36,241 bases of DNA from Alphaproteobacteria bacterium (GTDB taxonomy: Bacteria; Pseudomonadota; Alphaproteobacteria; GCA-2731375), in contig JAPYPT010000013.1 in NCBI GenBank assembly GCA_029937535.1, positions 1 to 36,241 on the forward strand. Direction: 5' to 3'. The position numbers and the translations under genes were made by a program. Below the pieces are notes generated by a model. That model did not search any database, was not told the DNA's origin, and saw nothing but the letters and a program-made list of their open reading frames with translations. The stretch's first letter is position 1; each line of letters starts with the position of its first letter. Shown here piece by piece: positions 25,727-36,241 of the stretch.

Positions 25727-26563
25727 GTGTCTCAGGATCCTTTGGAATTGACCCAGGCGGAACAGGAAGACGGCGCGGAGGACGGGGCCGAAGGCGAGAA
25801 GATGCCTCTGATCCAGCATCTGATCGAGCTGCGCAACCGTCTGTTGTGGTCCATCGGCGCCTTGGTGGTCGGGTTCGTGCTCTGCTACATCGTGGCGGAA
25901 GAAATGTACACCTTTCTGGTCCAGCCCCTGGCGGATTTGATGGAGGGGCAGCCGGGCCGGCGGTTGATCTATACCGGCCTGCATGAAGCCTTTTTTACTT
26001 ATCTGAAAATTGCCTTTTTTGGCTCTGTCTGCCTGACTTTCCCCATTGTCGCCGGGCAAATGTGGGCCTTTATCGCGCCCGGGCTTTACAAACACGAACG
26101 CCACGCCTTTCTGCCCTTTTTGATGGCCACGCCAGTGTTGTTCCTGATGGGCGCATCGCTGGTCTATTATTTGATTTTTCCCTTGGCTTGGCAATTTTTC
26201 ATGAGCTTCGAGAGCGCGGGCGGGGCCGGCACCCTGGCCATCGTGATGGAGCCCAAGGTCAATGAATACCTTTCCCTGGTGATGAAGCTGATCTTTGCCT
26301 TTGGGCTGTCCTTTCAGCTTCCCGTGGTCCTGATGCTCATGGCCCGGGCCGGCATGGTCTCGTCCAAGGGCCTGGCGGAAAAACGTAAATATGCCGTGGT
26401 TATCACCTTTGCCGCCGCCGCCCTGCTGACGCCGCCAGACATCATCAGCCAGATCGGCCTCGGAATTCCGATTTTATTGTTGTACGAAATCTCCATCATC
26501 GGCACTAAGCTGGTGGAGAAAAAACGGGCACAGCGCGAGGCTGCGGAAGACGACGCTAGTTAA
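25727..26563 (+). CDS. tatC: Sec-independent translocase TatC
   Basis: The multispanning receptor for twin-arginine signal peptides, 278 aa with six expected membrane helices. The cytoplasmic start contains the conserved MPLIQHLIELRNRLL, and the family stretch FAFGLSFQLPVVLMLMARAG is present. Translation starts at a GTG 3 bases after the tatB stop. The acidic N-terminal extension of about 25 residues is common in Alphaproteobacteria. The gene after it is not serS, often found there, but a transporter operon. Confidence 0.95.
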   Translation: MSQDPLELTQAEQEDGAEDGAEGEKMPLIQHLIELRNRLLWSIGALVVGFVLCYIVAEEMYTFLVQPLADLMEGQPGRRLIYTGLHEAFFTYLKIAFFGSVCLTFPIVAGQMWAFIAPGLYKHERHAFLPFLMATPVLFLMGASLVYYLIFPLAWQFFMSFESAGGAGTLAIVMEPKVNEYLSLVMKLIFAFGLSFQLPVVLMLMARAGMVSSKGLAEKRKYAVVITFAAAALLTPPDIISQIGLGIPILLLYEISIIGTKLVEKKRAQREAAEDDAS

Positions 26564-26728
26564 ACATCTCCGCCCGGAAGATCAATTATTGCTGATCGTA
26601 TTTCATTATCGCAATTTCCATATTGTTTGAAACTGTTATTGCGTCTAGGCTTGCGCACTGAATGTGAAACGTAACTCCAAATAAACAACAGAGAACGCGT
26701 CACACAAACATGCCTTAGGGAGGTAGAT

Positions 26729-27976
26729 ATGCGTAGAAGGACATTTTCCAAAATACTTGTACCGGCAATTGCGCTGGCGTTGATGGCGACACCGGCCATG
26801 GCGGCGAAAAAGAAACCCGTCAAGATCGGTCTTTTGTATGCCCTGTCCGGCCTGGCGGCCGTTTACACCAAGGGCACGGTTATTGGCCATCAAATTGCGG
26901 CGGAAGAAATCAATGCCGCCGGCGGCGTCCTGGGGGGACGCAAGATTAAGTTCGTGACCCGGGACAACAAACTAAAACCCGGCATCGCGGTGAAGGAATT
27001 TCGCCGCCTTGTGACCCGCGACAAAGTCGATTTTGTCATGGGCGTCATTTCCTCCGGCATCGCCCTGGCCGTCAGCCAGGTGGCCAAGGAAATGAAGGTA
27101 TTGTTCGTGGACACGATTGCCCAGACGGCGGCGTTGACCGGCGAACAGGGCCACAATTATGTGATCCGCACCAACACCAACTCCACCGTGATTGGCCGCA
27201 CGGCCGCGCTTGCCGCGTCCAGGCAGGATTGGAAGAAATACTACTTCATCGGCCCTGACTACGAATGGGGCCACCGTGTGAACGCCGACTTCTGGGATTT
27301 CCTGCGGGTCAAGAAGCAGGGTGTGGAAAAGTTGGGCGATTTATGGCCAAAACTGGGCGAGCGTGATTATTCCGCGCACATCACGGCCATGTTGAACGCC
27401 AAACCCGACGCGGTCTTCTCCTCGCTCTGGGGCGGTGATTTGATTGCCTTCATCAAACAGGCCAGCGCCTATGGCTTCTTCGATAAAATCCAGTACATCT
27501 CCACCGGTGGCGGCGATCTGGATATCCTGAAACCACTTGGCAAGGAAATGCCCGACGGCGTCATGGCGACCTACCTCTATGCCTTTGACACCAGCCCGGT
27601 GAAACAGGCGGAGAACAAGAAGTTCATCGCCGAGTTCAAAAAGCGGGCCGGTTATATTCCGAAGTCCGGTGACATCATCGGTTATGTCTCCACCTATATG
27701 CTGGCCGAGGCCATGAACAAGGCGGGTAGTGCCGATTCAGACGCCATTGTGAAGGCCATGCGTGGTTCCAAATTTGCAACCATTCTGGGTGATATCGAGG
27801 TTCGGAAGATCGACGGTCAGGCGACCTTTGCCTATCACGCCGGCTTTACCTACACCCACCCCAAGTATCCCTTCAAACGTCTGAAGGACGTAACCCGAGC
27901 GGAAGGCTTGGAAGTCCTGCGCACCGATGCGGAAGTCGAAAAAGCGCGCATGGAGTACAAGAAGAAAGGCAGCTAG
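26729..27976 (+). CDS. Substrate-binding protein of a HAAT/Liv-type ABC transporter
   Basis: A periplasmic type I binding protein (415 aa) related to LivJ/amide-binding proteins. The signal peptide is MRRRTFSKILVPAIALALMA with predicted cleavage after PAMA (about residue 26). Its RRTFSK matches the twin-arginine pattern RRxFxK. The mature part begins KIGLLYALSGLAAVYTKG and shows AAEEINAAGGVLGGRKI. GGGAGG is a strong ribosome site 6 bases upstream. The ligand is uncertain: family members bind branched-chain amino acids, amides, urea, aromatic acids or other small polar acids. The permeases and ATPases follow downstream. Expression is probably higher than theirs because a hairpin separates it from the permease genes. 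Confidence 0.9.
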   Translation: MRRRTFSKILVPAIALALMATPAMAAKKKPVKIGLLYALSGLAAVYTKGTVIGHQIAAEEINAAGGVLGGRKIKFVTRDNKLKPGIAVKEFRRLVTRDKVDFVMGVISSGIALAVSQVAKEMKVLFVDTIAQTAALTGEQGHNYVIRTNTNSTVIGRTAALAASRQDWKKYYFIGPDYEWGHRVNADFWDFLRVKKQGVEKLGDLWPKLGERDYSAHITAMLNAKPDAVFSSLWGGDLIAFIKQASAYGFFDKIQYISTGGGDLDILKPLGKEMPDGVMATYLYAFDTSPVKQAENKKFIAEFKKRAGYIPKSGDIIGYVSTYMLAEAMNKAGSADSDAIVKAMRGSKFATILGDIEVRKIDGQATFAYHAGFTYTHPKYPFKRLKDVTRAEGLEVLRTDAEVEKARMEYKKKGS

Positions 27977-28030
27977 GGTTTCGCTTCGAAATGCGGGCCT
28001 AACAGCCGTGTTGGCTTTACGAAAGTGAGT

Positions 28031-28065
28031 GACCGGGGTCGCGTGAAATTCACGGGGTCCCGGTC
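28031..28065 (+). terminator. Long hairpin between binding-protein and permease genes
   Basis: gaccggg (28031-28037) pairs with cccggtc (28059-28065), and inside it cgtgaa and ttcacg form a second stem. It lies 54 bases after the binding-protein stop in a 237-base gap. Only a weak pyrimidine run follows, so it is more likely an attenuator or an RNA-stabilising hairpin than a full terminator. Confidence 0.5.
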
Positions 28066-28213
28066 TTCGCCCTCTCGGCCTGACGAATCTTTTGCCGCTT
28101 TGTGCCGCTGTCCAAGTAATATCCATCTGAGCAATCCGACTAAGTAGATTGTTCAACATCCATGGTTGCCCCTGGCACGGTTTTCCAAGGGCCCTACGTC
28201 ACGGAGTACCGGT

Positions 28214-29107
28214 ATGGTCGATTTCTTCACCAATGTGTTTTTCGTCCAACTCGTCAACGGGTTGTTTATTGCCGCCGGCATTTATCTGGTGGCGTCTGGC
28301 CTGTCACTGGTGTTTGGCGTGCTGGGTATTTTGAATTTCGCGCACGGCTCCTTTTATATGTACGGCGCATTTTTTGTCTTTACCTATGTCGGATTTACCG
28401 CTGGAGATTTCTGGCCGGCGCTATTTATCGCCCCCATGGTCGTCGTCATTTTGGGCGTGGTCATGGAGGTTGTCTTTCTGCGGCCGATCTACAAGGCTGA
28501 TCCGCTTTACCAGCTCTTGCTGACCTACGCGATGGTCTTAATATTCGGCGATCTGGTGAAGATCCTCTATGGGGCCGAAAATTTATCGGTGGCGCGGCCG
28601 GAAGGTTTCGAAGGTACGGTTACAATTGCCGGCAGCTTGTTCCCCAGCTACCAGATATTCGTGCTCCTGCCCGCCGGCTTTTTGACCGTCCTGGGGCTGT
28701 ATTTGTTCCTCAACCGCACCAATGTGGGGCGCACGGTGCGGGCGGCGACCCAGGACCGGGAAATGATCGGCGCCCTCGGCGTCAATGTACGGCTACTTTA
28801 CACCGGGGTCTTTGCCATCGGCGCCTTTTTGGGTGGTTTGGGCGGCGCTGTCCTGGCGCCCATGGGGGCGCTGTATCCGGGCATGGATTTCGACGTCATC
28901 ATCGAGGTTTTCCTGGTCGTGGTCTTGGGCGGCCTCGGCTCCATGGCCGGTACCGCCTTGGGCGCGCTGATCTATGGCGAGTTGAAGTCTTTCGGCATTC
29001 TTTGGGTGCCGGAACTCGAATCCGTATTCATCTATGTTCTCATGGCCGTGGTCCTGGTGGCCCGGCCGCAGGGCCTGTTGGGTAAAAAGGTTGAAGGTGG
29101 TCATTAG
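28214..29107 (+). CDS. HAAT/Liv-type ABC permease (LivH-like)
   Basis: An inner-membrane permease of 297 aa with about eight membrane helices. It begins MVDFFTNVFFVQLVNGLFIA and contains GLSLVFGVLGILNFAHGSFY, the hallmark of LivH/BraD permeases, and the ATPase-contact loop around GRTVRAATQDREMIGALGVN. I chose ATG 28214, preceded by GGAG (28203-28206); an upstream TTG would add 16 unlike residues. It pairs with the larger permease 49 bases downstream. Confidence 0.93.
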   Translation: MVDFFTNVFFVQLVNGLFIAAGIYLVASGLSLVFGVLGILNFAHGSFYMYGAFFVFTYVGFTAGDFWPALFIAPMVVVILGVVMEVVFLRPIYKADPLYQLLLTYAMVLIFGDLVKILYGAENLSVARPEGFEGTVTIAGSLFPSYQIFVLLPAGFLTVLGLYLFLNRTNVGRTVRAATQDREMIGALGVNVRLLYTGVFAIGAFLGGLGGAVLAPMGALYPGMDFDVIIEVFLVVVLGGLGSMAGTALGALIYGELKSFGILWVPELESVFIYVLMAVVLVARPQGLLGKKVEGGH

Positions 29108-29156
29108 TCCCCGCGGATTGATGGCGGCATGAGTAGGCAAGATTAGGAGAGCTGGC

Positions 29157-30623
29157 GTGGCGACTTCGCAAGATAGTTTACAAGATACCGCGGGAGCGGT
29201 TGGCAAGGGCCAGAGCGCATTTCGGGATCCCGTGCTCTGGGGTTTCCTGGTGGCATTGGTGCTGTTTTTCTGGACGCCGGAACTGATCATTTATATGGAG
29301 TGGGCGGATTTCTGGATCATCTTCCTCACGGAAGCGTTCATCTGGTCCCTATTCGCCGTCGCCTTTAATCTGCTCATGGGTTATGGCGGTTTGATCTCGT
29401 TCGGTCAGGCGGCTTATTTGGGCATCGGCGGCTATACCGCCGGATTATTGTTGAAATATCTGGTCTGGATGAATTTCTACGTCGCCTTGGTCGCCGCGCC
29501 CATCGGCGGCGCCCTTGCCGCCCTGGTGATCGGTTATTTCTGTATCCGCCGGACCCACATCTATTTCGCCATTCTGACCCTGGCCTTCGGCCATATCGTC
29601 TACCTTATCGCCTTCAAATGGTATGATTTCACGGGCGGCGATAACGGTTTGATTGGGATTCCGGTCCCGGAATGGATTAAGGACCCGACCTTTGTCAGTT
29701 ATTACAAATTCGTGCTGGTGATTTGCATGGTGTCGATCTATCTGCTCTGGCGGATCGTCAATTCGCCGTTCGGCAAGACCTTGACGGCGATCCGGGAGAA
29801 CGAGGTGAGGGCCGATTTCGTGGGCATCAATGTCCAGCGCCACAAGCTCTATGCCTTCATGATCGCCGGCGCCTTCTCCGCTCTCGCCGGCGCCTTGATC
29901 ATGATCAACGAGCGCAGCGTCTACCCCGATCTGGCCCATTGGACCCAATCGACCCAGGTGCTGCTGATGAGCCTTTTGGGCGGCGTTTACACCTTTTTCG
30001 GGCCCGTCGTCGGCGCTTTTCTACTGCTGACCATGGATGCGGATATCACCCAGAACTATCCGGAAATCTGGCAACTGTTCCTGGGCGGCACACTCGTGCT
30101 GATCCTGTTTGCGCTGCCTGGTGGAATTGTCGGCTTTATTCAGGAACGCGACGAGAATGCGGCCGATGACATGGCAACGCGCATGGCCAAATTGATGGCC
30201 CAGTTCAGCCGAAAATCCTGGTATTTCTTTGGCGGCGCGGTGAGTTTCACGGTATTTTTCTCGATTTTACAGACACCGGATTCGTGGTGGATCTCGGAAG
30301 ATTGGGATTTTGAGCTGTTGTCGCTGATCACCTGGGGCATCCTGCCCCGGACCATCCTGCAACTCGTCGTTGGCGCGGCCATTCTGTGGTGGCTGCTGCG
30401 CGGCATTCAATCCTTTCAGGCGATGCATCGTTGGCTGTTATTGGCCTTCACTGTTTTGTCGCTCGCCCTGCATATCTACCTGGAAACGCCTTTGTCGGGT
30501 CTGTTGTTGGTGTTTTTGTGGGCCGTCTATAGTTTCTATTGTCTGTTCGAACCGGATACCCGGCAGGCCTTCAGTGGCGGTATCGAGGTTGTAAAGGACG
30601 CCGCCCAGGAAGCGGCCGAATAA
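29157..30623 (+). CDS. HAAT/Liv-type ABC permease (LivM-like) with C-terminal extension
   Basis: The second permease, 488 aa against roughly 300-420 for most LivM proteins. The core (about 1-330) is typical: FNLLMGYGGLISFGQAAYLG, TLAFGHIVYLIAFKW, and the contact loop FGKTLTAIRENEVRADFVGI. After residue about 330 there is an extra region of about 155 residues with four or five hydrophobic segments, including ILQLVVGAAILWWLLRGI and PLSGLLLVFLWAVYSFYCLF. The GTG start is preceded by AGGAG. The extension could be an accessory membrane domain; I do not recognise it. Confidence 0.9.
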   Translation: MATSQDSLQDTAGAVGKGQSAFRDPVLWGFLVALVLFFWTPELIIYMEWADFWIIFLTEAFIWSLFAVAFNLLMGYGGLISFGQAAYLGIGGYTAGLLLKYLVWMNFYVALVAAPIGGALAALVIGYFCIRRTHIYFAILTLAFGHIVYLIAFKWYDFTGGDNGLIGIPVPEWIKDPTFVSYYKFVLVICMVSIYLLWRIVNSPFGKTLTAIRENEVRADFVGINVQRHKLYAFMIAGAFSALAGALIMINERSVYPDLAHWTQSTQVLLMSLLGGVYTFFGPVVGAFLLLTMDADITQNYPEIWQLFLGGTLVLILFALPGGIVGFIQERDENAADDMATRMAKLMAQFSRKSWYFFGGAVSFTVFFSILQTPDSWWISEDWDFELLSLITWGILPRTILQLVVGAAILWWLLRGIQSFQAMHRWLLLAFTVLSLALHIYLETPLSGLLLVFLWAVYSFYCLFEPDTRQAFSGGIEVVKDAAQEAAE

Positions 30624-30666
30624 ACAGTTTTGGCCATATACCGCGCGTCTCAGGGAGTTTTAGAAA

Positions 30667-31407
30667 ATGTTGCTTCGCGTTGAAAACGTTACCATGTCGT
30701 TCGGTGGCTTTATCGCCACGAACAATGTTTCCTTGAATGTGGAAAAGGGCCAGATGGCCTGTATCATCGGCCCCAACGGCGCCGGTAAATCGACCCTGTT
30801 CAACCTGATCACCGGCCATTTGACACCGACCATGGGCAAGATTTTTTTCCACGATCAGGATATTACCGGCAAGGCGCCCCACACCATTTGCCAGCTTGGC
30901 ATGGGGCGGTCCTTTCAGCGAACGAATATATTCCCCCGCCTTACGGTTTTTGAAAACGTCCAGGTGGCAGTGCTCTCCCATACCCGCAAGACCCTCAATT
31001 TCCTGACACCGGCGAAGACCATGGTGCAGGAAGCGACATTCGCCTTGCTGGAAGATGTCGGCCTGGTGGATCAGGCGAAATCCACGTCGGGCACTTTATC
31101 TTATGGCTATCAAAAACAACTGGAATTGGGCATCACCCTGGCCAGTGACCCGGAAATTCTGTTGCTGGACGAACCCACCGCCGGGATGTCGCCCCAGGAA
31201 ACCACCAATAGTATTGAATTGATCGCGCGGATCTCGCGGGAACGGGGTCTGACGCTGCTGTTCACGGAGCATGACATGGACGTGGTGTTTTCCGTGGCCG
31301 AGAAAATCACCGTGCTGCATCAGGGCGCGGTTCTGGCCGAGGGCGCGCCAGAGGACGTCAAGAACGATCCGGACGTGCAACGCATCTACCTGGGAGAAGC
31401 GGCATGA
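30667..31407 (+). CDS. HAAT/Liv-type ABC ATPase (LivG-like)
   Basis: One of two cytoplasmic ATPases powering the transporter, 246 aa. Walker A is GPNGAGKST (35-43), the Q-loop region GMGRSFQRTNIFP, the signature LSYGYQKQLELG, Walker B ILLLDEPTAGMSP and the switch His in FTEHDMDVVF. The signature has YGYQ rather than SGGQ, as usual for LivG proteins. GGGAG lies upstream of the ATG, and the stop overlaps the next ATPase by 4 bases. Confidence 0.95.
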   Translation: MLLRVENVTMSFGGFIATNNVSLNVEKGQMACIIGPNGAGKSTLFNLITGHLTPTMGKIFFHDQDITGKAPHTICQLGMGRSFQRTNIFPRLTVFENVQVAVLSHTRKTLNFLTPAKTMVQEATFALLEDVGLVDQAKSTSGTLSYGYQKQLELGITLASDPEILLLDEPTAGMSPQETTNSIELIARISRERGLTLLFTEHDMDVVFSVAEKITVLHQGAVLAEGAPEDVKNDPDVQRIYLGEAA

Positions 31408-32117
31408 TCCTGGAAGTCAACGATATCTACACCTCCTATGGTTTGAGCCAGATTTTGTTCGGCATTTCCATCAACGTGGACGAAGGTGAATGTGTCGCCC
31501 TGCTGGGCCGCAACGGCGTCGGCAAGACCACCACCCTGCGCTCCATCATGGGGCTGACAGCGCCGACAAAGGGCAGTGTGGTTTATAAAGGCAATGATAT
31601 TACCGGCCGGGCCTCCTTCCGCGTGGCCAAGATGGGGGTTGGCTTCGTACCGGAAGAACGCCGCATATTCTCCGATCTATCGGTGCGCGAGAACCTGGAA
31701 ACCGGCCGCAAGCCCGCCGCCAATGGCGCCAATGGCGGCAAGGAATGGACCATCGACCGGGTACACGAAATTTTCCCCATCCTGGAAGGGTTGAGCGACC
31801 GCAAGGGCGGGTATTTGAGCGGTGGCGAACAGCAAATGCTCACCGTGGGGCGCACGCTCATGGGCAATCCCGATCTATTGCTTCTCGACGAACCTTCGGA
31901 AGGCCTCGCACCCCTGGTGGTCCGCGATCTTAGTAATCAAATCGCCCGCCTGAAGGAAGAAGGCATGACGATCCTGCTGTGTGAACAGAACGCCAAATTC
32001 GCCACGGGGCTCAGCGACCGCGCCTATATTCTGGAAAAAGGCCAGGTCCGTTTCGGCGGCACCATCGATGAGTTGCAGGAAAACGAGGAAATCCGGGACC
32101 AATACCTGGGCCTGTAA
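31404..32117 (+). CDS. HAAT/Liv-type ABC ATPase (LivF-like)
   Basis: The second ATPase, 237 aa, starting within the previous gene's stop (ATGA). Walker A is GRNGVGKTT (35-43), signature LSGGEQQML, Walker B LLLLDEPSEGLAPL and switch region CEQNAKFATGLSDRAYILEKG. The short C-terminus fits LivF. It ends the transporter set; an IlvD-like dehydratase gene begins 105 bases later and may share the transcript. Confidence 0.95.
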   Translation: MILEVNDIYTSYGLSQILFGISINVDEGECVALLGRNGVGKTTTLRSIMGLTAPTKGSVVYKGNDITGRASFRVAKMGVGFVPEERRIFSDLSVRENLETGRKPAANGANGGKEWTIDRVHEIFPILEGLSDRKGGYLSGGEQQMLTVGRTLMGNPDLLLLDEPSEGLAPLVVRDLSNQIARLKEEGMTILLCEQNAKFATGLSDRAYILEKGQVRFGGTIDELQENEEIRDQYLGL

Positions 32118-32222
32118 AATAACTGCAAAATTTCCGACCGCTATAACCTGGAGCGTGTCGCGGCTAATCTGCTATAAGCGGTGCCGCGTGTTGTATCACG
32201 TCGAAAAACAGGGAGAGCGGCC

Positions 32223-34022
32223 ATGTCAGCGGACAAATCAAAAACGAAATTGCGCAGCCAGCGCTGGTTCAACGATCCGGACCATCAGGAAATGTCGGCG
32301 CTGTATCTGGAGCGTTATCTTAACTTCGGCCTGACGCCCGAAGAGCTGCGTTCGGGCCGGCCGATCATCGGCATCGCCCAGACGGGTAGTGATCTTGCCC
32401 CCTGTAACCGCCACCATATCGAATTGGCCAAACGGGTCACGGCCGGAATTCGCGATGCGGGCGGCGTACCGATCGAATTTCCGGTGCATCCCATACAGGA
32501 GACCGGCAAACGCCCCACGGCGGCCCTGGACCGCAATCTGCAATATCTCTCCCTGGTCGAGGTGCTGCACGGCTATCCCATTGATGGCGTGGTGCTGACC
32601 ACGGGCTGCGACAAGACCACCCCCGCCATGCTGATGGGCGCGGCGACGGTCAATATTCCCGCCATCGCCCTGCCGGGCGGCCCCATGTTGAACGGCCATC
32701 ACGAGGGCCAGCGCACGGGCTCCGGCACCATTGTCTGGGACGCGCGGCTGAAATTGAGCGCCGGTGAAATCGATATCGATAAATTCGTCGAACTGGTGGC
32801 CTCGTCCGCGCAAAGCGTTGGCCATTGCAATACCATGGGCACCGCCACCTCCATGAATTCCCTGGCCGAGGCCCTGGGCATGACCCTGACCGGCTCCGCC
32901 GCCATTCCGGGACCCTACCGGGAGCGGGGACAGATGGCCTACCGCACCGGTTTGCGGATCGTCGATATGGTGCACGAGAATTTAAGGCCCTCGGACGTGA
33001 TGACCCGGGATGCCTTCATCAACGCCATCGTAACCTCTTCGGCCATTGGCGGTTCGTCCAACTGCCCGGTCCATCTGGCCGCCATCTCCCGCCATATGGG
33101 GGTGGAATTGAACCTGGAGGATTGGCAGACCTACGGCCATGACATTCCCCTGTTGGTCAACCTGCAGCCGGCCGGCGAATATCTGGGCGAGGATTATCAC
33201 AAGGCCGGCGGCGTGCCCCGGGTGATGCTGGAGCTTAAGGGCGCTGGCAAATTGAATGAGGGCGCCATGACCGTAACCGGCAAGACCATGGGTGAAAATC
33301 TGGATGCGGCCCACGCAGCCAGCTCCTACGTCAACCGCGACGTCATCAAAGCTTATGATCAACCCATGATGCAACACGCCGGCTTCGTGGTTCTGTCGGG
33401 CAATCTGTTCGACAGCGCGGTGATGAAGACGTCCGTCATCGACGACAGTTTCCGCGGCCGCTATCTTTCCAACCCCGGCGATGAAAACGCCTATGAAGCC
33501 CGCGCCATTGTCTTCGAGGGGCCGGAGGATTACCACGACCGGATCAATGATCCATCCCTTGAAATCGGTATCCACAGCATTCTTGTGATCCGGGGCTGCG
33601 GCCCGGTTGGCTATCCCGGCTCGGCGGAGGTCGTGAACATGACCCCGCCCGACGCCTTGGCCGCACAGGGGATCGAGGATCTGTCCTGCATGGGCGACGG
33701 GCGGCAGAGTGGCACCTCCGGCAGCCCCTCCATCCTTAATGTTTCGCCCGAAAGCGCCGTCGGCGGCGGCCTGGCGATCCTGGAGACCGGCGACATGGTG
33801 CGGGTCGATCTGAACACCCGTACCGTCGATGTGATGTTGGACGCAGGGGAAATAGAGAAACGCAAGGCCGCCTGGACCGCGGATTTCCCCGGCTCGCAAA
33901 CGCCGTGGGAGGATATTTACCGGTCCATGGTCGGGCCATTGGAAACCGGCGGTTGCCTGGAACCGGCGACCATGTTCGTCAATGTGATAGAGGAGCGGGG
34001 CGAGTCCCGAGATAGTCACTAA
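32223..34022 (+). CDS. IlvD/Edd-family dehydratase (pentonate-dehydratase-like)
   Basis: A 599-aa Fe-S dehydratase of the IlvD/Edd family. The three cysteines expected to hold the cluster are Cys61 (SDLAPCNRHH), Cys129 (TTGCDKTTPAM) and Cys201 (GHCNTMGTATSMN), the layout seen in [2Fe-2S] sugar-acid dehydratases. The C-terminal MGDGRQSGTSGSPSILNVSPE differs from the IlvD form and is nearer L-arabinonate/D-xylonate dehydratases. I chose ATG 32223, with GGGAG nearby, over an upstream start adding 14 basic residues. It probably dehydrates an aldonate or dihydroxy acid delivered by the adjacent transporter. Biosynthetic IlvD is less likely given the context. Confidence 0.88.
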   Translation: MSADKSKTKLRSQRWFNDPDHQEMSALYLERYLNFGLTPEELRSGRPIIGIAQTGSDLAPCNRHHIELAKRVTAGIRDAGGVPIEFPVHPIQETGKRPTAALDRNLQYLSLVEVLHGYPIDGVVLTTGCDKTTPAMLMGAATVNIPAIALPGGPMLNGHHEGQRTGSGTIVWDARLKLSAGEIDIDKFVELVASSAQSVGHCNTMGTATSMNSLAEALGMTLTGSAAIPGPYRERGQMAYRTGLRIVDMVHENLRPSDVMTRDAFINAIVTSSAIGGSSNCPVHLAAISRHMGVELNLEDWQTYGHDIPLLVNLQPAGEYLGEDYHKAGGVPRVMLELKGAGKLNEGAMTVTGKTMGENLDAAHAASSYVNRDVIKAYDQPMMQHAGFVVLSGNLFDSAVMKTSVIDDSFRGRYLSNPGDENAYEARAIVFEGPEDYHDRINDPSLEIGIHSILVIRGCGPVGYPGSAEVVNMTPPDALAAQGIEDLSCMGDGRQSGTSGSPSILNVSPESAVGGGLAILETGDMVRVDLNTRTVDVMLDAGEIEKRKAAWTADFPGSQTPWEDIYRSMVGPLETGGCLEPATMFVNVIEERGESRDSH

Positions 34023-34023
34023 A

Positions 34024-34926
34024 ATGAGTAGCCTCATACACGACCACAGCCATTGGGGGCCGGGCGACCAGCTTGGCGCCGCCAACCAATTGAGCCCCGA
34101 AAGCACCCTGGCGGCCCTGGCCCTGGCCAAGACCGGCCAGGTGCTGGACCTGAGCCACGTGATCGAGAACGGCGCGCCCTTCATGGCGCCGAACCAGACG
34201 CCCTATGTCATTACCTCCGGCGCCACGGCCCGTAATAGTCAAAAGGTCAGGGCCGCCCTGGGCGCCACCAATCAGGTTGGCGCCAACCTGGAGCGGGTCG
34301 GCATGACCATGCACGTGGGCACCCATATTGATGCTCTCGGCCATTTCAGTATCGGCGAGCATCTCTATGGCGGCCACAATATCAACGACAGCATGGGTGA
34401 TTTCGGCCTGATCGATCTGGGCATCGAGAACATTCCCCCCATGATCACCCGTGGTTTGTGCCTGGATGTTTCGGGCCTGGACGGGGCCGAACACCTTAAT
34501 CCGGGCCGGGCGGTGACGGCGGATGATTTACGGCGCTGTTGCGAGGCCCAGGACGTCGAACCCCAGGCCGGGGATGCGGTGTTGATCAACACCGGCTGGG
34601 GCCGCTACTTCATGACCGACAACGCCACGTATCTGGAGGGAGAGCCGGGCCCCGACGAGGGCGCGGCGCAATGGCTGACGGAGCAGGGCGTGGTCGCCAT
34701 CGGCGCCGATAACATGGCGCTGGAGGTCCTGCCCGGCACCAATCACCCAGAGGTCATGATGCCCGTACACCAACACTGCCTGGTGGAGGCAGGCGTCCAT
34801 ATTATCGAAAACATGGTGCTGGCCGATCTGGCGCGCGATGGCGTGAGCAGTTTTTGCTTCATCCTGTTGCCGGTCAAGTTCAAGGGCGCCACCGGCTGCC
34901 CGGTCCGCCCGGTGGCTATTCTGTAG
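34024..34926 (+). CDS. Cyclase-family metal hydrolase
   Basis: A 300-aa member of the cyclase family (kynurenine formamidase/isatin hydrolase-like). The metal motif HxGTHxDxxxH is present as His97, His101, Asp103 and His107 in MHVGTHIDALGHF. NTGWGRYF and the C-terminal PVHQHCLVEAGVHIIENM also fit. These enzymes open or hydrolyse cyclic amides, formamides or lactone-like rings. It begins 1 base after the dehydratase stop, so the two are tightly coupled and probably act on successive intermediates. Its end overlaps the convergent gene by 11 bases. Confidence 0.87.
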   Translation: MSSLIHDHSHWGPGDQLGAANQLSPESTLAALALAKTGQVLDLSHVIENGAPFMAPNQTPYVITSGATARNSQKVRAALGATNQVGANLERVGMTMHVGTHIDALGHFSIGEHLYGGHNINDSMGDFGLIDLGIENIPPMITRGLCLDVSGLDGAEHLNPGRAVTADDLRRCCEAQDVEPQAGDAVLINTGWGRYFMTDNATYLEGEPGPDEGAAQWLTEQGVVAIGADNMALEVLPGTNHPEVMMPVHQHCLVEAGVHIIENMVLADLARDGVSSFCFILLPVKFKGATGCPVRPVAIL

Positions 34927-35350
34927 ATTTAGCTCTGTCCGGGTAGCCGAGTTCCCAGTGGGAGCCCGGCAAATGTGGCAGCCCGTCGGCAAATTTTATC
35001 CACGGCACCATGCCGTCCACCCAGATGTGATCGTCGGGTTTGACAAGGGCGGGATCGTCCAGGGCGGCGGCGGAGATATCCAGTTCGTCGCCGTGGTCGT
35101 CAGAGGCATAACCCAGCGTGGTGCCGCAGGTGCCGCAAAAGCTTCGCCGGATCACGGGGGAGGAGCGATAAACCGTCGGCGTGCCCTGGGTGTAGGCGAA
35201 GCCCTCCGGCGGCAGGGTAATCCAGGTGATAAACGGCGCCCCCGTCGCCTTGCGGCAGGTCGCGCAATGGCAATGGCTGACCACCAGGGGCTCGCTCGTG
35301 ATTTCAAAACGGATATCGCCGCACAGACAACCGCCAACCATTTTTCTCAT
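34916..35350 (-). CDS. GFA (glutathione-dependent formaldehyde-activating)-like protein
   Basis: A small zinc protein of 144 aa, with cysteines Cys8 and Cys10 (GGCLCGD), Cys27, Cys29 and Cys32 (SHCHCATCRK), and Cys72 and Cys75 (FCGTCGTTLG), the standard GFA zinc pattern. I chose ATG 35350, preceded by GGGGAG; the frame extends upstream, but the added 54 residues are Cys- and Arg-rich and lie over the sulfatase gene. Although named for Gfa, most such proteins have unknown function. It is transcribed with the sulfatase gene ending 19 bases upstream. Confidence 0.85.
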   Translation of the reverse strand: MRKMVGGCLCGDIRFEITSEPLVVSHCHCATCRKATGAPFITWITLPPEGFAYTQGTPTVYRSSPVIRRSFCGTCGTTLGYASDDHGDELDISAAALDDPALVKPDDHIWVDGMVPWIKFADGLPHLPGSHWELGYPDRAKSTE

Positions 35351-35369
35351 TGTTTTTCGCTCCCCGGTG

Positions 35370-36241
35370 TTACCAGACGCCGAAAATATAGCCGCGCGCC
35401 TTGGCGTTGCCCGTGCGCCGTTCCACGGTGTCATTGGACATCGCCGTGCGCATGTGCCGGCCGCGCAGCCAGTGGAACAGTCTTTCATGCAATATGGCCC
35501 GCTGTTCCCCATGGGCCGGATCGGTTCCCAAGTCAGATTGTTCGTTCGGGTCTTCCGCCAGATGGAACAGTTGGGGTGGGAAGCCTTCGTAGAAGATATA
35601 TTTCCAGTCCGCCGTCCGGATCATGTAGGCCCGTGCCTCATTGGGGCCCAGGCCCAGGGCGCGGCGGGCGGGGTGAAAGGTGTAATCAGTTTCTGAAAAC
35701 ACCGCGTCGCGCCAATCTTCGATTTCATCGCCCCGCAGCAGCGGCAAAAGGGAGCGGCCCTCCAGACGGTGATCGTGCCGGTCGCCGCCCTGACTGTCCA
35801 GAAAGGTGGGGATCAGATCGATGGCTTCCACTAAACGGTCGTCCACGGCGCCACGGCGGCCATCGGCGGCGGTGTCGGGGTCATAAATGATCATGGGAAT
35901 GCGCGCGACCTCTTCATGCAGCAGGTCCTTTTCGGCCAGGCCATGATCGCCCAGGTAATCCCCGTGGTCCGAGGTCAGCACGATCATGGTGTCATCCATC
36001 CGGCCCTGGTCTTCCAGATAGGCTATGAGGCGGCCGAACTGGTCGTCGCACTGGGCGATAAGGCCCATGTAGGCGGGGATCACCGTGCGGCGCACCTCGT
36101 CGCGGCGGAAATTCTCGCTGCCCTCGTGATCCATGAAGGCGCCGACCACGGGGTGGCGGTCCGCCAATTCCCCCTGGCCCATATTGGCGGGCAGGATCTG
36201 GTTGGGGCCGTACATATCGTTGTAGGGGCGGGGCACCACAT
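35370..36241 (-). CDS. Sulfatase/phosphonate monoester hydrolase-like protein (partial)
   Basis: The C-terminal part, about 290 residues, of an alkaline-phosphatase-superfamily sulfatase; the N-terminus lies beyond the window, including the CxPSR formylglycine site. Seen are the metal-binding TSDHGDYLGDHGL, KDLLHEEVARIPMIIYDPD, and the C-terminal substrate-side segments AYMIRTADWKYIFYEGFPPQ and LFHLAEDPNEQSDL. The pattern fits arylsulfatase/phosphonate-monoester-hydrolase types. It could remove sulfate from a carbohydrate or aromatic ester. The GFA-like gene follows on the same strand. Confidence 0.88.
   Translation of the reverse strand, partial: VVPRPYNDMYGPNQILPANMGQGELADRHPVVGAFMDHEGSENFRRDEVRRTVIPAYMGLIAQCDDQFGRLIAYLEDQGRMDDTMIVLTSDHGDYLGDHGLAEKDLLHEEVARIPMIIYDPDTAADGRRGAVDDRLVEAIDLIPTFLDSQGGDRHDHRLEGRSLLPLLRGDEIEDWRDAVFSETDYTFHPARRALGLGPNEARAYMIRTADWKYIFYEGFPPQLFHLAEDPNEQSDLGTDPAHGEQRAILHERLFHWLRGRHMRTAMSNDTVERRTGNAKARGYIFGVW

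Follow-up and report, generated by a model that had tools for sequence, protein, structure and literature searches.

A predicted C-terminal membrane extension on the LivM-like permease of an alphaproteobacterial ABC importer

The closest described systems are the LivM-type permeases of the BPD_transp_2 family (PF02653), which usually end soon after the family core and are encoded in one operon with a binding protein, a second permease and two ATPases. Also considered for comparison were the TRAP small subunit DctQ/SiaQ (PF04290), TctB (PF07331), which is a small membrane protein, and DUF6867 (PF21741), a small membrane protein encoded by a separate gene next to liv genes. SiaQ is described (PMC9971032) as a four-helical scaffold with both ends inside and tryptophan enriched at the membrane edge, and contact with the binding protein is predicted for its outside loops.

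The stretch of DNA analysed here, henceforth referred to as the window, comprises 36,241 nucleotides of an alphaproteobacterial contig. As judged from gene content and family matches, the window operon is a five-gene ABC importer of the branched-chain amino acid type, containing a binding protein, LivH, LivM, LivG and LivF. The coordinates of the genes and of the predicted features of the LivM-like protein are collected in Table 1. The K-H-M-G-F gene set was found adjoining in all six related loci, and the K, H, G and F proteins of two of these (L014 and L047) display 71-80% identity to their window counterparts. NCBIfam transporter equivalogs all scored below cut-off for the window importer, and the branched-chain amino acid substrate is a prediction from family. 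A promoter and terminator scan of positions 26500-32400 returned a site count not above that of shuffles.

Table 1. Liv operon of the window and predicted parts of the LivM-like protein (residue numbers are those of the LivM-like protein).
Feature	Position	Strand	Basis
Periplasmic substrate-binding protein, LivK-like (Peripla_BP_6)	26729..27976	+	Pfam E 1.6e-72; operon place same in related loci
LivH-like permease	28214..29107	+	Pfam BPD_transp_2 E 1.5e-34
LivM-like permease with C-terminal extension, 488 aa	29157..30623	+	Open frame, 488 codons; BPD_transp_2 residues 56-317
LivM core, residues 56-317	29322..30107	+	Pfam BPD_transp_2 E 5.5e-42
Charged linker (predicted helix), residues 329-354, probably on the cytoplasmic side	30141..30218	+	Model helix, charges; side inferred
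Extra helix 1 (predicted), residues 355-373	30219..30275	+	Hydropathy in 6/7 members; model
Outside loop (predicted), residues 374-391; rich in acidic residues and Trp in the window's clade	30276..30329	+	Invariance: 17/18 positions in window clade (n=4), 2/18 in all seven
Extra helix 2 (predicted), residues 392-415, starts TWGxxP	30330..30401	+	Hydropathy, model; TWG and P invariant in 7/7
Extra helix 3 (predicted), residues 426-443	30432..30485	+	Hydropathy, model
TPLSG hairpin, residues 444-448	30486..30500	+	Invariant in 7/7, between helices 3 and 4
Extra helix 4 (predicted), residues 449-465	30501..30551	+	Hydropathy, model
C-terminal polar end, residues 466-488	30552..30620	+	Low conservation
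LivG-like ATPase	30667..31407	+	ABC_tran and BCA_ABC_TP_C
LivF-like ATPase	31404..32117	+	ABC_tran; in NCBIfam, UrtE and LivF score highest but under cut-off

The window LivM resembles described LivM permeases in its operon and in its core, which aligns to positions 5-269 of the 269-position BPD_transp_2 profile. From this alignment, the core is assigned to the BPD_transp_2 family and the tail is regarded as an addition. Unlike ordinary LivM, which ends soon after the core, the window protein continues for 160 residues past residue 328 and adds approximately 135 residues with four likely helices beyond the ordinary end. An earlier note on this DNA had claimed a region beyond the normal LivM core, and this was confirmed by the family match being limited to the core and by the NCBIfam LivM and UrtC models, which stop at residues 326-342. 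The possibility that the region aligns with ordinary LivM C-termini was contradicted by the same model ends and by the tail-less relatives inspected, all of which (18 of 18) end shortly past the core, with livG directly next in several; L003, which lies at a contig end, and L008 were left out of this judgement. The end position given in the note (30623) matches the open frame, while its start (30145) is out of frame, residue 331 beginning at 30147.

When searched alone, residues 329-488 had no accepted Pfam, NCBIfam or PHROGs family, the sole Pfam match being DUF6358 (E 0.11), below its cut-off. The seven tails known to us, when scanned singly against Pfam, had no family in common. The best single-tail match, TM7S3_TM198 (E 0.0049), appeared in only one of the seven members, and weak matches of this kind were taken as chance because the other tails lacked them. 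The absence of a known domain was likewise upheld by profile comparison and fold search, and the tail was absent from the literature searched, in which coverage of subscription papers was small. A survey of LivM proteins, which had been proposed as a check, identified the tail in seven LivM proteins from different assemblies. Since the same join recurs in all seven assemblies, assembly fusion is an unlikely source of it. The tail is judged to be a genuine membrane extension, carried by an ABC permease that is ordinary in other respects.

The membrane character previously ascribed to the tail agrees with its four predicted helices, which favor the lower of the "four or five" hydrophobic segments first counted. 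Using a Kyte-Doolittle threshold of 1.3, three segments pass in the window protein, with the first falling below threshold, and four pass in each of the six other proteins. Compared with composition-keeping shuffles, hydropathy gave P values of 0.2 for the window tail and 0.015-0.085 for the other six. Hydropathy alone is therefore only weakly beyond composition, and it is the conservation of the tail that exceeds chance. Enrichment in tryptophan, also claimed previously, is clear (5.7% in residues 331-488 vs 3.3% in residues 1-330), and that in leucine is slight (15.2% vs 13.3%).

Most lysine and arginine residues of the tail fall in the linker, the C-terminal end and the loop joining helices 2 and 3, a placement consistent with both tail ends lying inside. 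The outside loop of the window protein reads PDSWWISEDWDFELLSL. Within the window's clade, 17 of the 18 loop positions are invariant compared with 82 of 132 in the whole tail (hypergeometric P 0.0013, for a segment picked post hoc among four near relatives). In the other clade, the loop is not specially conserved (7 of 18 positions invariant), and its two K/R residues and fewer acids make the topology and acidic-loop arguments weaker in that clade. A loop that is fixed inside a clade and altered between clades might behave like a recognition surface. It is the one hint bearing on the partner binding, altered substrate route or regulation that the note had proposed as possible roles. The last residues of some tail-less relatives, SQFSRKA, resemble AQFSRKS of the tailed proteins, which suggests that the addition starts near residue 354 and that the ordinary LivM end was retained.

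Structure prediction of the tail alone produced a model with a pLDDT of 62 and a pTM of 0.55, in which the outside loop fell below 50. The full-length model was poor (pLDDT 42), so packing of the tail on the core was not visible. Foldseek comparison of the tail model with the PDB gave no match at E ≤0.001, and nothing under E 0.001 was obtained from a viral fold library. VIA analysis of the same tail model (pLDDT 62) returned Z values up to 10.0 for generic helical bundles, within the range of the tool for helical models. SiaQM-type chains were not among the Foldseek or VIA matches listed, and a PDB sequence search returned no LivM relative.

The distribution of the tail was determined by searches whose genome sets overlap. 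A single pass over genome contigs, with the whole protein as the one query, identified five loci with best-segment identities of 92, 88, 84, 70 and 69%. Searching with the tail alone, four of 61 genomes were positive, all of one genus and including the window's own; the other three correspond to L013, L016 and L017. The tail was present in 4 of 15 genomes of the window's order and in 3 of 76 genomes of the order of the Reyranella genome, one of which was new (G401, with the protein taken from L047). Samples of the class (385 genomes) and of the phylum (398 genomes), with at most nine candidates scored per genome, contained no believable tail beyond the window's genome. One class match (G304, E 0.004) sits in a protein judged by eye to be a phosphate permease and was attributed to chance. 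A standalone form of the tail was not seen in the order, class or phylum searches, viral contigs contained no relative, and no plasmid match covered 80% of the LivM-like protein. Based on the genus, order, class and phylum counts, the tail appears to be rare and patchy, and apparently confined to a small alphaproteobacterial group.

Identity to the window tail is 44-86% among the six others, and the nearest tail-less LivM cores display 42-50% identity. In a tree of 25 LivM cores, the seven tailed proteins form one clade with a support of 99/100 and a long stem; several distant rows of this tree are long-branched and unsure in position, and L031 and L034 carry an X at one stop codon within the match. 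The tail may have been acquired in a single event, in the common ancestor of a small LivM subfamily, and retained since.

Tail dN/dS, calculated for residues 335-466, was below 1 in all 21 pairs (0.046 to 0.60), compared with 0.012 to 0.14 for the core; many pairs approach saturation at synonymous sites, which makes the ratios rough. Tail dN was approximately 3-7 times core dN, showing that the tail evolves faster. Values as low as 0.05 were observed within the window's clade, and pairs with L047 gave 0.5-0.6, a range in which constraint on the tail may be slight. Taken together, these values show the tail behaving like translated sequence that is constrained at the protein level, though much more loosely than the core. 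A tail that is selected yet loosely constrained would be as expected for a peripheral domain. The elevated dN and the dN/dS values up to 0.6 would also suit a nearly neutral leftover of an old read-through or fusion, harmless in the membrane and with hydrophobicity alone kept, as would the hydropathy segments close to composition expectation and the standalone relative not found in the genome searches. This explanation is considered unlikely, as the tail is present in all seven clade members with no stop codon in any of them, the TPLSG and TWG motifs are invariant, and dN/dS reaches its low values within the window's clade.

Descent from a known small membrane protein was assessed by profile comparisons, all of which are limited by a tail profile built from seven close sequences; L070 (out of frame as cut), L083 and L084 (internal stop; annotated gene begins inside the piece) were left out. 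Kinship with DctQ, prompted by the helix layout and by TRAP neighbours, was rejected at the sequence level, as hhalign gave 0.5% for the tail, 0.4% for the reversed control and 100% for DctQ halves against each other. One single DctQ compared with the tail gave 0.9%. TctB, prompted by a GxxPR-like stretch, gave 0.3% with a higher reversed control; a TctB gene is located at 631-1026 of the L014 contig. DUF6867, represented by a profile holding two proteins, gave at most 0.5%, about the level of reversed controls, and a DUF6867 search in the window's genome gave no match. Pfam models of DctQ, TctB and DUF6867 did not match any of the seven tails at E 10. Partial duplication of either permease, LivH or LivM, was also rejected: LivH gave 0.1%, and a 97.2% match to the LivM core consisted only of 20 joint residues present in both inputs. 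Comparison with TatC gave nothing.

As predicted, the tail would resemble DctQ/SiaQ in having four helices, ends inside, tryptophans near the helix ends and an outside loop that might meet the binding protein; the two differ in transporter class and have no sequence or profile kinship. This resemblance is one of design and not of kinship. The same SiaQ features (PMC9971032) could be accommodated by a captured small subunit, either TRAP DctQ or TctB, or by a captured DUF6867 protein, that has diverged past sequence recognition, and DctM genes do adjoin the tailed operon in L014, L015 and L047, as DUF6867 adjoins liv genes in two other genomes. With profile scores about level with reversed controls, DctQ halves that recognize each other fully, and none of the seven tails matched by the Pfam models, such a capture is regarded as very improbable.

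The genes surrounding the operon differ between the two clades. Following the liv operon of the window, positions 32181-34926 contain one gene of the dihydroxy-acid dehydratase family (NF009560, above cut-off) and one of the Cyclase family. This pair also follows the liv operon in L013, L016 and L017; in L017 an amidohydrolase gene lies in between. In the second clade (L014, L015 and L047), the tailed liv operon adjoins TRAP transporter genes, identified as DctM by Pfam in all three. Separately, L018 and L019, from two other members of the class, encode DUF6867 proteins of ~116 aa next to their liv ATPase and binding-protein genes.

Beyond the five pump genes, no neighbour common to both clades was seen in the related loci, and the dehydratase/cyclase and TRAP neighbours thus indicate no single partner. 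A bracing role with a partner-facing loop is considered most likely, and is tentatively ranked above a regulatory function and a leftover that is tolerated. On this reading, which is possible, if somewhat short of probable, the tail would be an accessory membrane domain, specific to this lineage, bracing the permease and presenting an outside surface to a partner, for instance the binding protein. Four helices with both ends cytoplasmic would be joined to the ordinary LivM end by the charged linker helix, and the resulting bundle would pack at the lipid edge of the LivH-LivM pair, anchored by interface tryptophans. Loop 374-391 would provide an extra contact for the partner, most simply the cognate binding protein, while the transport path would be confined to the ordinary core.

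A regulatory or partner-recruiting module, which would bind another membrane protein or sense the state of the membrane or substrate and tune the pump with neither bracing nor docking, could account for rapid evolution combined with one clade-fixed loop, and for ordinary LivM proteins managing without a tail. It is rather unlikely given that no non-pump neighbour was seen in both clades. A bolder form of the bracing and docking proposal, drawn from the SiaQ analogy, is that the tail represents a new family of fused accessory subunit in ABC importers, a Trp-anchored four-helix scaffold whose loop helps dock the binding protein and has been re-tuned between clades; this is viewed as quite doubtful. 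If the tail is functional, the protein would offer a natural ABC importer with an added membrane module, suited to tests of docking vs bracing. If it is functionless, it would neatly illustrate how a membrane add-on can be tolerated.

At the far end of the window, positions 34916-36239 of the - strand hold two genes, one of the GFA family (34916-35512) and one for a sulfatase (from 35370, running off the window end). As listed, they overlap by ~140 bases, which is probably a start-site artefact.
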